A program made the position numbers and the translations under genes. 33,499 nucleotides of DNA from contig WELB01000104.1 in NCBI GenBank assembly GCA_009602725.1, positions 401,856 to 435,354 of the forward strand, written 5' to 3'. The notes beneath the pieces were generated by a model. It did no database searches. It worked only from the letters and a program-made list of their open reading frames with translations, and was not told the DNA's origin. Positions within the stretch are counted from its first letter, which is position 1, and each line of letters starts with the position of its first letter. Source of the DNA: Spirogloea muscicola. Taxonomy: Eukaryota; Streptophyta; Zygnematophyceae; Spirogloeales; Spirogloeaceae. Below, in pieces: positions 202-6,130 of this stretch.

Positions 202-3200
202 ATGGGGAGCCGCGGCGACCCGGCGGGCGACGATATGTTCCAGGACGACGTCGAAGGGGAGGAGGACGACGCCGAGGTGCGGCGCCCAGCCCAGGAGTTA
301 AGATTTAGGGTTTTGGATCCGGGGTCTTAGGGTTCGAATCTCAGGGTTTGCGCCTCGTCCACGCCAGGCCTCCGCCCCGCGCTCCCCGCTCGCCGCGGCG
401 CCTTGCCTGCTCTGCCAAGTGTGGGCGCTGCCGCAGGCGAAGGTCCATTCACCCACCATTCCAGATGGTGTTCATGGCAAGCGCAGGACCGCTACGCCGC
501 CGGCAAGGAGCTGGTTGTGTACCTCGTCGACGCCGCCGCCGACATGCTCCTGCCGCTCTCGCCGCCGGTCGGTGTCTCGCAGTCACATGCTCCGCCCCTC
601 GCTACAGAGTTTAGGGGTTTAGAGATTCAATTTGGGGTTAGGGTTGAGGGTTAGGATTCAGTTAGGCATTAGGGTTTAGGGTTTAGGGTGCCGATTGCGG
701 AGCTTCATGGGCGCTGGGCTGGTTTTAAAGGCAGTTCACTGGTGACGGCCTGGCAGGACGACGACGAGCGGACCTTCCTGGACGCGGTTCTGGCCGCCAT
801 TGGCGAGGACCTCAAGGCGCGCATCATCTCCCGCGACACCGACCTCGTCTCGCTCTGCTTCTTCAATGCGGTGAGTTGGGTTCTGCAACCATCTGAGGCG
901 CATCAAGTGATACAGTTGCGGCGATGCCTGCTCCGAAGTGACGAGCTCTGGGCCGTGCTGAAGTGTTTCTAGCTCTGCGCCTGCACTGGATGTCCATTTG
1001 CGCAGCGGGAGAAGAAGAACCTGCAGGAGGGTGAGGGCGTGTTTGTGCTGCAGGAGCTGGAGCTGCCATCTGCGCAGCTTATCTGCAACGTTGCCACGCT
1101 GCCAGGCAAGTGCTGGCTGCGCTAGCTGTGGCACAGCGAGAGTCAGCTCCCTCAGCCAGCCGCCAAGCCACCAACCCTCTCCCCCCCACTTCTGCCCATA
1201 GCAGCCATTTAGCCTCATGCCAGGTGGTGAGCCAAGCGCCAGTTCTTTGAGCATGAGCTCAACTTGAGCCCCCATGCAGGCCGCTTTGAGAAGGTGGTCG
1301 GCAGCGGGCCCGGCGTGACAGCTGCATCGCGTGACAACCCTCTCTACACTGCACTCTGGGTGACGCAGGCGCTCTACCGCGCTGGGTGAGCAGCCTGACC
1401 CCACAAGCACCCCACGATCAAATCGTTCCCCCCCTCTTCCCTCCCACCCCCTGGTTCACCGTTTGTGCCACTCCCTCTCTTGTGCTTGCGTTGACATGCC
1501 TCGTGAGCCTATCTCTCCAATGGAGGCACGTTCTCGGGGTACAAACGCATCTGCAATGTCCAAGCTGTGGCGCTTCTCCTTGTGGTAACGGGCTCCGGGA
1601 TGGGTCACCAAATGAATGGACCCAACACAAAAGAGATGAGAGAAGCTCGGATGTCACAGCTTTAGCTGCTTAATGCAGACGAGCTTGCCAGCAGGCATCC
1701 CTGAGTTGCTGCTTCGATCAAGTCGCTCCTGCAGGCCATCGAAGCACGTGACCAAGCGCATCATGCTCTTCACCAACAATGATGACCCCTTTGGGGAGCT
1801 TGACGAAGCTGTCAAGCGCGACATGGTGCGGACCACGGTCCAGCGTGCCAAGGTACGCAGACTGCCTCAGACGTGCTTGGGATGTCAGAAATGCCAAGTA
1901 CATTCGTGTCAATGGGATTCAACAATTACTCTAGGAGGACTTTTTCGCTCAAGCTGCCGCGCCCGGCACAGTCCTTGCTCTTTAGGCTCCAGCCTACCCT
2001 GACGGCGATTGCATTGTCCTTGCGCGCAGGATGCGCAAGACCTGGGCATCCAGCTGGAGCTGCTGCCTATGAGCCGGCCTGGAGAGAAGTTCAATGTCAA
2101 CATCTTCTATGCGGTGGGGGACGATTCCAAAGGCTTGCATCTGGAATGGACAACTTGTCATAAGAAGTACTAGCTGGACCTCAGCACTTTTTGGACAGGC
2201 TCGCAGCTCCTTATTATACTACAATCACTATCCAGATGGTCAGGAGTTTGAGAATACGCTTGCCGACCATGAGCACGACCGCACCAGCCACTTCTTGCTG
2301 CTAATGTTGTTGCTGCTGCTTACCTTGAAATGCCAGCAAGCAATCGAGGGGCTGGCTCAGGACGACCCTTCCAGCTTCCTTGTGACAGCCAGCTCAAGGT
2401 GCGAGCAGTGCTTAGCCGGCCAGCCTGCAGATGTTCTCTGGTTGAGTACTTACCTCTTGCATGGCGACTTCCACATGGGACTAGGCTGTGACCTGTAAAC
2501 TACCTAAAGCCTGGATCCTGAGCAATCCCAGAATGTGAAACATGCGAGTCAATCCATGGCACTCCAGTCGCAAGTGTAGCATCACTCTGAGCATCACTCG
2601 ACAAGAGGCAGCTTCATTTCCACGGATGCTCTCAGCTTGGGCATCTCTCTTGCGGGCAGATTCGAGGACCTGGTGAGCCAGCTGAAGAAGCGGGTTTTCA
2701 AGAAGCGCATGGTGCGGCGTTTGGCGCTTACAATAGCGCCGGGCACAGAGATTGCACTGAGGTCCTATGCCATGCTTCGGCCAGCTTCAGAGGGTACGTT
2801 GTCCATGCAGCAGCAGAGCCGCACTTGGAGCTTGTGATAGGGTGCGCAGTCCTGTTGCAAGCAAGGCAGCAAGAGGCCTTGCTTGCGTTAATTTGTAATT
2901 AAAGTGGCATTAATGAAGTGTTTCCACTAAAAGTCAACACCAGTGCGCTCCCTGTGCAGGAAGGTACACGTGGGTTGAGTCTCGGACGCACTCGGAGGTG
3001 AAGGTGAACGTCTGCCGTTGCTCTTTGTCGAGCTCATGCTCTTGCCAGTGCTAGACATGGACCTCAAACTTAACTTCCACATGTTACGATTCTACTTGAG
3101 AGCTGGCGTTTTCCACTTGACAGGCTCCTCATACCTGACGGTTCACATTTTGATTGTCTCTGGCAGCCTGACACCAGCCTCATCTGCGCCGACACAGGGG

Positions 3201-6130
3201 CGATCCTTGTGGAGCCCATCAAGCGTATGCAGCTATATGGCGGGTACCGCCTGCTGATCAGCCACCGGCTCCTCATTCTTGGTTAACCATGTCACGTCTG
3301 TGCTCTGGCATGAAATCCAAGCACGTGGGATTCAAGTGCTCTGTGCTTGGGGTTGCCACATGGCTTCTTCCGATGGCTGCTTTTACTATGACAGCGTTCA
3401 GGTCTTGTTCACGCCTGCTGAGCTTGCCGAGATCAAGAAGGTCATCAAAGACGACCTGCAGCTTCTGGGGTTCAAGTCCTTGGAGCTCCTCAAGGACCAT
3501 CACAACTTGCGGCCTCCGACCTTCCTCTATCCTGACGATCTTGTCAGCATACCCTGCAGCTGATCCTCTTGCCCGAACACATGTGCTGCTGTTACCCTGA
3601 ACATGCGTGGCATAAAGGGGAGAGAACCCCTGCTGTTAATTTCATAGCTTCTGCTTCCCAAGCAGCATTGACCATTTTAGTTTGCTGTCTCTGCTGCAGG
3701 CTATAAGTGGAAGCGTCTGTGCATTTGCGGCGCTCCACCAAGCAATGCTGGACACACAGCGGTGAGTGGAGGAGTTATCCTCACTACGCAAGTATCTGAT
3801 TGAATAGGAGTCACCTAAGGATGCCAACTACCCTATGCACATTGGGTTAGATAGTTGCTAAAGGCTACATGTGAGACATGTCCTCAGCTTTGCAAGTACG
3901 TGCACTTTGCCACAATATTGATGAGGCATCTGGTGTGGAGAAGTTGACAAGAATGCGCATACAACCTCGTCAAGCTGAAAAGCTGATTCTGCTGCTGCGA
4001 TGCATTCAGTGTGACTCTGATGCCCAATATTCTGCAGGATGCTCGCAGGTTTGCAGTCTGCTGCTACGGCAAGTCTACCATGCCACAACTAGTGGCCCTT
4101 GTGGCTCAAGTAAGTCTGAGAAGCTGCACTTGGTCTCAATATCTTCACCTTGGCTACGTACTTCCGAACACCCTCGTCTGCCAAATTGCATGCTCCCTGA
4201 GCCTATGCGCTTGCTTCTTCTTACATGATGGGTTTGTAAACTCGTGAAAGGAGTTTGGTTGCTGACGCGAGCCACAGTGGTTTTGTGCCGCTGCCTGAGA
4301 GCTGCCCAGGAAGAGAAGCTCGAGGAAGGAGGGGCAATTCAGGTGCAGCCGCCTGGCATGCAGATGATCTACCTCCCATTTGCTGATGATATTCGAATGG
4401 CCGAGCAGGTTTTAGCCGCTTCCCAAGCCTATCTCTCCTTGTCGAGTTGCATGTTACTTATATGTGCAGCTTGGTCGTCTTCCTCGTGTGTACCTTGCAA
4501 GCTGCCTGCATCTCTCAGCCTACTAGCTGTCTTAGACTTCTCATTTGATGTCGTTTTAAAGTGACAAATGTACGTATGCAAAGCATGCGGTTTATCACTC
4601 TCTTAGATAACCTTTCTCACGAAAGCAAAGCAAGGCCATGGGGATTGACGTGCTTGGAGAATGAGAATGGAATAGACATCTATACAGCTTGATCAGCTTC
4701 TATCTTGATCTGTATATCCTGAACCATGGTGGGTTGGAGACTGACGTGAAGTCGTAACAAGGTAGCCATAGGGGATCCAAAAACAAGACATGCACCCTGA
4801 CTAACCTCAATCGCATGTGCATCAGGGTGCGCTTACAAGCTGTCCATTGGCTTGCTTCGGGTCTTGCAGTATCACGTATCACAAGAAGCACCAGTAGCTC
4901 GGGCGAGCAAAGAGCAGGTCGAGAAGGCTTTGGCCATGATACGACGACTTGAGCTCAAGGACTTCTCACCTGACCAGATCTCCAATCCCTGTGAGCCGTA
5001 AAGATATCAATTAATGCGACTGCAAAGTATTACTGCAAATTGTCATCTTTGCTCATGGGTGAATTGCCAGGGCTGTGAGCCAGCTGAAGCGAACCTGGCG
5101 AGCACAGACAAGCTCATGCTGGTGATGGCTGCTCCCACATCGCAGAGTTGCCCCAGCTGAGGCTGCTAATGTGGGTATTTCGGCAGCCTTGCAGCACCAC
5201 TTTGCTATCATTGAGGCACTCGCGCTTGACGAGGATGAAGCGCGGGAGGTTAAGGATGAGACTTTGCCTGATGAGAAGAGTCTCGAGAGGTTGCTGCAGC
5301 AGCACCCTCTCTGTCATTGTTACTTGGCACAATACATGCTTCTCGATCATTTACACAAGATGACATACCTTCATTTCAATTTTGCACAGCTCCTTGGGAT
5401 GCCGTTCTTCGTTTTCGGTAGACCTTCGGTCCGATGCATCATGAGCACCTTGTGAGTGGCCACTGACGCAGAAGAAGTTGTTGAGGAGTTTTACTTTGTT
5501 GCCTGGGCTGGTGCAGGCCGGCTGTCAGAGCAGCAATCCAGGCCTTCAAGGACGCTGCGTATGGTGAGAACCACGATGCTGAAGAGGCCGAGAAGGAGTA
5601 CGCAAAGGGTGCCAGCGCGCGTAAAAGGCAAGCAACTGCAGAAGCTGCCGTGGAAGCCGCGCGGGACTTTGACTGGCCGGAGCTCGCAGAGCAAGGGAAG
5701 GTGAGGCATCCCGGTGTAGCATCCGGTGTAGCGCAAATAACACATTGTATACCTGCTGTTAGGCCCTGTTCCCTCAGACTATGTACAAGTAACAGCGGGC
5801 GTCATTGCCGCCTCTCTGTGCAGCCGTATGCTTGCGGCTTAAGGGAACAGCATGCCCTCCTGACATTCGCTCCTGTGACATCGCCCATGTTGCGTCGAGG
5901 CTTTTTGCCAATCCAAGTAATGGCTCAGTCGCGTGCCTGCACAATGGCTTGACCATCCCCTCTCCGTGTCACCTGGTTGCGATTCTTAACATCAGCCAAG
6001 TGCGTGGGTTTTGCAGCTTCAGGAGCTGACGGCGGAGCAACTGAAGATCTTCTGCAGAGCAAACCATCTCCCACTGACTGGAGCCAAGGCCGTGCTGATC
6101 GACCGCATCTTGCAGAAGCTAGGACTGTAA
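202..6130 (+). CDS. KU70: Ku70, DNA-end-binding subunit of the Ku heterodimer (19 exons, 628 aa)
   Basis: Ku70 pairs with Ku80 to form the ring that binds broken DNA ends in non-homologous end joining and also protects telomeres; it acts in the nucleus. Exons read: 202-276, 487-567, 757-870, 1006-1105, 1280-1385, 1735-1852, 2030-2113, 2337-2398, 2660-2793, 2960-3003, 3167-3243, 3395-3542, 3700-3761, 4049-4109, 4310-4408, 4870-4990, 5187-5289, 5517-5700, 6017-6130. They sum to 1887 nt with every phase matching. Domains: acidic N-terminus (1-25); von Willebrand-like Ku N-terminal domain (about 30-225; YLVDAAADM, FTNNDDPFG, DAQDLGI, LELLP); Ku beta-barrel core (about 235-520; LKKRVFKKR, ICADTGAI, LLGFKSLELLKDHHNLRPP, LVALVAQ, IYLPFADDIR, RRLELKDFS, DETLPDEKS); C-terminal SAP DNA-binding domain (592-626; ELTAEQLK, LTGAKAVLIDRIL). 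Length and order match plant Ku70. Intron 4 uses a GC donor. The start is the first ATG in frame with the acidic leader. Confidence 0.95.
298..352 (+). repeat. Degenerate telomere-like repeats, Ku70 intron 1
   Basis: A perfect TTTAGGG lies at 304-310, followed by variants (CTTAGGG, CTCAGGG) in intron 1 of Ku70. The G-rich strand is the mRNA-sense strand. TTTAGGG is the Arabidopsis-type telomere unit also used by many trebouxiophyte algae. Confidence 0.65.
607..690 (+). repeat. Interstitial telomere-like repeat tract, Ku70 intron 2
   Basis: A run of TTAGGG/TTTAGGG/GTTAGGG/TTGAGGG units ends in three consecutive units (one TTAGGG, two TTTAGGG) at 669-688. The tract sits wholly inside Ku70 intron 2 (568-756), with the G-rich strand in the sense direction. 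It is too short and degenerate to be a chromosome end. Confidence 0.8.
4723..4778 (+). other. Inserted fragment of organellar small-subunit rRNA gene, 3' end (NUMT/NUPT)
   Basis: Positions 4748-4767 carry the universal near-3'-terminal SSU rRNA sequence AAGTCGTAACAAGGTAGCC, preceded by a GACGTG context and followed by CATAGGGG. GGTAGCC rather than GGTTTCC marks the bacterial/organellar type, not nuclear 18S. The fragment lies inside Ku70 intron 15 (4409-4869) and is far too short to be functional. I infer a captured piece of mitochondrial or plastid DNA; the outer borders are approximate. Confidence 0.75.

Follow-up and report, generated by a model that had tools for sequence, protein, structure and literature searches.

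The window, meaning the entire 33,499-nucleotide stretch of Spirogloea muscicola DNA that was analyzed, carries a Ku70 gene whose first exons and introns were delimited by reading frame and GT-AG splice borders (Table 1). The Ku70 label holds because the joined exon pieces match the Pfam family Ku_N (E 9e-23). Each of the first two introns contains a degenerate telomere-like tract, with TTTAGGG at 304, 610, 675 and 682 and further TTAGGG units, outside TTTAGGG, at 327, 638 and 669. The only perfect consecutive units are TTAGGG-TTTAGGG-TTTAGGG at 669-688, which form the end of the intron 2 tract; the remainder is degenerate. An earlier note had described telomere-like units in these introns, the consecutive run and a G-rich strand in the sense direction, and motif positions and the gene model confirm all three, with coordinates and letters correct and every unit on the + strand, as is the gene. 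The window also holds three exact telo-boxes, all of them within Ku70 introns 1 and 2.

Table 1. Exons and introns at the 5' end of Ku70 and the telomere-like features within them (window positions).
Feature	Position	Strand	Basis or remark
Ku70 exon 1	202-276	+	frame and GT-AG splice borders
Ku70 intron 1	277-486	+	frame and GT-AG splice borders
Degenerate telomere-like tract, intron 1	297-352	+	motifs at 304 and 327; aligned in three copies
Exact telo-box TAGGGTTT	306-313	+	intron 1
Ku70 exon 2	487-567	+	frame and GT-AG splice borders
Ku70 intron 2	568-756	+	frame and GT-AG splice borders
Degenerate telomere-like tract, intron 2	608-689	+	motif matches; aligned in three copies
Exact telo-box TAGGGTTT	670-677	+	intron 2
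Exact telo-box TAGGGTTT	677-684	+	intron 2; one base in common with the box at 670-677
Ku70 exon 3	757-870	+	frame and GT-AG splice borders

With both strands counted, positions 304-688 hold four of the five TTTAGGG and seven of the ten TTAGGG of the window. Window-wide, neither count is remarkable: the five TTTAGGG compare with 2.38 expected (at least five in 10 of 100 shuffles) and the ten TTAGGG with 9.91 expected. Between 276 and 754, borders that lie 1-2 bases off the final exon/intron borders, there are seven TTAGGG and four TTTAGGG, where shuffles average 0.30 and 0.10, respectively, and none of 2000 shuffles was as high for either motif. The clustering of units within Ku70 introns 1 and 2 thus exceeds chance. 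Elsewhere in the gene, an intron carries at 4748-4767 a 20-base match to the universal 3' end of plastid/bacterial 16S rRNA. This match is possibly a scrap of organelle DNA; Rfam at the gathering threshold gave no match in the window.

The genome searched comprises 153 Mb in 471 contigs, and Ku70 is present in three copies, on the window's contig (C104), C110 (86%) and C57 (85%). A genome triplication has been reported for this species (PMC7994812). Ku80 domains lie on three contigs, as do TERT domains, and glutamyl-tRNA synthetase and Elongin A are each represented by their 5' exons on three contigs, Elongin A twice on one of them. TERT has a RuBisCO small subunit gene as its neighbor, some 11 kb away, on C8, C39 and C42, a shared neighborhood that indicates three syntenic copies, the mark of a triplicated genome. 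Among solved structures, a RuBisCO small subunit fragment from this genome finds its best relative in small subunit 1A (Arabidopsis) at 118 bits, compared with 87 bits for 1gk8 (Chlamydomonas), in keeping with a streptophyte.

Three gene copies within one genome served as the basis of comparison, standing in for other algal species. The degenerate intron 2 tract aligns in all three Ku70 copies, and a 25-base core of it is identical across them, while the perfect TTAGGG-TTTAGGG-TTTAGGG run is found in the window's copy only. Exact telo-boxes number three in the window's copy and one in each of the others, the second copy retaining the box in intron 1 and the third retaining one in intron 2. Absence of the repeats from the same introns of relatives, which the earlier note took to speak against a regulatory role, was accordingly seen in part: the degenerate tract is common to all copies, but the exact units are not shared. 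Pairwise identity of the intron 2 tract is 81-85% with 9-22 gap columns, as against 78-90% identity for Ku70 introns 3-6 (the borders used are again 1-2 bases off the final ones), and the three-copy alignment of tract and introns 3-6 gives no sign of base-by-base constraint on the tract.

These comparisons also bear on how the tract arose. The notion of a recent telomerase scar in the window's copy is not supported, because the tract occurs in all three copies and no orthologous Ku70 site without it was found among them. A fresh telomerase insertion was rejected for that copy, since the aligned stretch holding the perfect run is equally long in copy B. An origin of the core from a dispersed repeat was likewise rejected, as a search allowing at most two mismatches returned the three Ku70 copies and one other site, C110:38662.

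Similar tracts are found at genes with no connection to telomeres. The 21-mer (TTTAGGG)3 has 752 matches across the genome, many overlapping inside long arrays. Our first sample consisted of 18 sites among the matches listed for this pattern (100 of 752) and our second of 20 sites from another pattern; of these 38, the 11 sites that by eye looked gene-like near the tract supplied the frames submitted to Pfam. At 10 of the 38 sites a gene identified by family match has the tract inside an intron or ahead of its coding start, with intron borders here, as everywhere outside Ku70, judged by eye. The G-rich strand is in the sense direction at UPF0176 (L004 and, through alignment to it, L020), LSm (L007), glutamyl-tRNA synthetase (L009), Elongin A (L013), AAA_26 (L019), an ABC transporter (L021), GH31 (L042) and PPR (L048), and antisense at a class II tRNA synthetase that by eye is of aspartyl type (L014). 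Counting UPF0176 once, sense orientation is seen in eight of nine family-named genes (two-sided sign test, 0.039). Two genes lacking a Pfam match are divided between the strands (L037 sense, L040 antisense), and a fasciclin gene (L005), whose tract is more than 400 bases upstream, was left out of the count. The remaining sites include long arrays, a contig end, mobile-element-like surroundings and more distant genes, among others. Tracts of this kind in unrelated introns, which the earlier note had also set against a regulatory role, therefore do occur, at several of the family-matched genes.

Proximity to coding starts differed between the samples. In sample one, 10 of 18 tracts are followed within 110 bases by the start of a sense coding segment, against 3 of 18 in the mirror-image count on the other strand; the codon model behind these counts had been trained on its own output and assigned the wrong strand at L014. 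In sample two the corresponding counts are 4 of 20 and 2 of 20, a weak closeness, and all four near-start sites fall outside the 11 submitted to Pfam, one of them looking mobile-element-like. Because of this weak second sample and the strand miscall at L014, enrichment of tracts at gene 5' ends is not established in this genome and rests on the plant literature. A background sample of twelve 10-kb stretches, cut from picked contigs at one fixed position and comprising 81.5 kb of readable sequence (three stretches are all N), shows no overall excess of TTTAGGG (4 against 4.1 expected under an order-2 model). It contains two exact telo-boxes, and a k-mer score detects a small telomere-like cluster in three of the twelve stretches, none tied to a named gene.

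Other tracts have different surroundings. Long internal TTTAGGG arrays occur at L036 and L038, where 1.6 kb of sequence contains 72 and 89 TTTAGGG, respectively, and at C27:905790-906261, where the array changes strand; such arrays, some of them bordered by N, are possibly misjoined chromosome ends. At five sites (L005, L034, L049, L050 and L053) TTTAGGG tracts adjoin a shared string like gggctggctttgccagcc, which by eye looks mobile-element-like.

Copies of the other genes permit the same comparison as for Ku70. One Elongin A copy has (TTTAGGG)3 21 bases ahead of the ATG, a second has a degenerate tract ahead of the ATG, and a third has no tract there, with telomere-like letters farther upstream; all three carry telomere-like letters past exon 1. 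Among glutamyl-tRNA synthetase copies, one has a long tract, one a short degenerate tract and one none aligned, and at UPF0176 (TTTAGGG)3 is kept in both copies read. As judged from these alignments, turnover of the Ku70 tract resembles that at Elongin A and glutamyl-tRNA synthetase.

Candidate binding proteins were sought using the Myb domain of Arabidopsis TRB1 as the query. Two loci (L066 and L067) match at 66-67% identity, and weaker matches occur elsewhere. In the frames from both loci an initial Myb domain precedes a linker-histone domain (Pfam) and a tail rich in alanine and glutamate that by eye resembles the TRB coiled coil. By its predicted domain order, the genome encodes a TRB-type protein, the type that binds telo-boxes in plants. 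Published accounts differ on this point, as TRB was not found in Zygnematophyceae according to PMC10167121 and is reported there, Spirogloea included, in PMC12616469.

We favor, at a probability of roughly one half, the reading that the Ku70 tracts form an ordinary telo-box cluster through which a TRB protein may bind and modestly tune Ku70 transcription. The boxes (TAGGGTTT/AAACCCTA, short interstitial telomere motifs) occupy introns 1 and 2, which are promoter-proximal, and their G-rich strand is the sense strand. A TRB protein would bind them at the DNA level and would act through chromatin partners; Ku70 would be regulated as one among many housekeeping or growth genes, and Ku's role at telomeres would be incidental. 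This reading is favored because the exact boxes of the window are confined to introns 1 and 2 and cluster beyond shuffles, because every Ku70 copy has the tract, and because unrelated genes have tracts in their introns or on their 5' side, eight of nine in sense, in a genome with a TRB-type gene. Support also comes from the Arabidopsis pattern of boxes in 5' UTRs and the first two introns (PMC3022908) and from the report that a single box suffices for TRB binding in Arabidopsis (PMC10167121). Of the options raised in the earlier note, a telo-box bound by TRB-like proteins fits best, in motif, in placement and in the presence of a TRB-type gene, with TRB occupancy itself putative. The reading is weakened by the divergence of the tract, which matches that of other introns, and by the unequal numbers of exact boxes (3, 1 and 1). 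It is also weakened by partner motifs, since site II, the usual partner, is not clearly enriched in readable sequence and much of the upstream sequence is N (the stretches scanned have few site II and no TEF match, and 786-1365 of their bases read N), and by a coding-start closeness that fell from 10 of 18 to 4 of 20 at sites of which the identified ones were picked by eye.

The coincidence of gene and motif, together with the sense orientation, could instead suggest a feedback element that places Ku70 under the control of telomere proteins or of free Ku, as had been proposed from the sequence. We consider this highly improbable. Similar tracts occur at genes lacking a telomere role, and the exact units differ among Ku70 copies. 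Moreover, no exact telo-box was found on either strand of the 5' sequence from three Ku80 copies (4.0-4.1 kb) or from three TERT copies (3.3 kb), whose start codon was not located, and sense TTAGGG is also absent from these same stretches. (Ku80 first codons and intron 1 are present in L054 and L055, whereas L056 was matched at its second exon only.) Antisense TTAGGG occurs four times in the Ku80 stretches and not at all in those of TERT. A regulon of telomere genes was rejected on the absence of the exact motif from Ku80 and TERT 5' sequence. The link between Ku70 and telomere sequence looks like a coincidence, because similar tracts accompany several unrelated genes, within them or immediately upstream, in the manner of plant telo-boxes.

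Two further explanations were weighed. The 8-to-1 sense bias among identified genes would agree with a G-rich intronic element acting in the sense transcript, as a splicing enhancer, through intron-mediated enhancement or as an RNA quadruplex, and a list of candidate hexamers for Arabidopsis first introns includes TTAGGG (PMC8157754). However, that list also contains ACCCTA and AAACCC, so that strand does not discriminate, and the enhancement motif TTNGATYTG is present in intron 1 of only one of the three Ku70 copies (copy C, L003). The quadruplex was rejected because quadruplex-allowing folding is no better than shuffles in any Ku70 copy, and an RNA-level element is on balance unlikely. A more serious contender, which we regard as a real possibility although short of probable, is that the repeats are neutral, an old tract added by telomerase or born of slippage that expands, contracts and decays near promoters and has no function. 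The intron 2 tract has diverged about as introns 3-6 have (81-85% identity with 9-22 gap columns, against 78-90%), turnover of length and units is also seen at Elongin A and glutamyl-tRNA synthetase, and a telomerase-based model for the spread of telo-boxes has been published (PMC3022908). Against neutrality, at least one exact telo-box is kept in each Ku70 copy and no base of the 25-base core differs among the three, although either could be chance.

These results do away with a tempting but deceptive connection between Ku70 and telomere sequence. We would venture, as a rather doubtful extension, that the algal lineage sister to land plants already used the telo-box/TRB system, with the boxes placed in introns as multi-unit tracts whose G-rich strand is sense; if so, the three copies per gene would show regulatory boxes gained and lost. 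With its triplicated genome, a TRB-type protein and several genes carrying telo-box tracts, this streptophyte alga offers a test bed in which box gain and loss can be compared among copies.

In the literature searched, as far as it was accessible, we found no work on where telo-boxes lie in the genes of zygnematophytes. Arabidopsis telo-boxes fall along the gene, are enriched in 5' UTRs and are commoner in the first two introns, although introns overall are not enriched (Gaspin et al. 2010, PMC3022908). The Ku70 tract has the exact 8-base motif (AAACCCTA/TAGGGTTT) and the first-intron location, and several other tracts lie near gene starts, so that on sequence grounds it adds to known first-intron telo-boxes. 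It differs from the plant telo-box in being clustered, degenerate and multi-unit, with the G-rich strand in sense, and in occurring in an alga; strand is not discussed in the accessible part of PMC3022908, and partner motifs are not clearly enriched in readable sequence. Interstitial telomeric sequences formed by break repair (PMC7215372) are likewise short telomere-like runs at internal sites, but every Ku70 copy has the tract and thus no insertion event is demonstrable. There is also a likeness to the TRB proteins and the telo-boxes that they target (PMC10167121, PMC12616469), in that this genome encodes an N-terminal Myb domain, a linker-histone domain and a TRB-like tail, whereas the Ku70 introns are putative counterparts of targets that are known in those systems.
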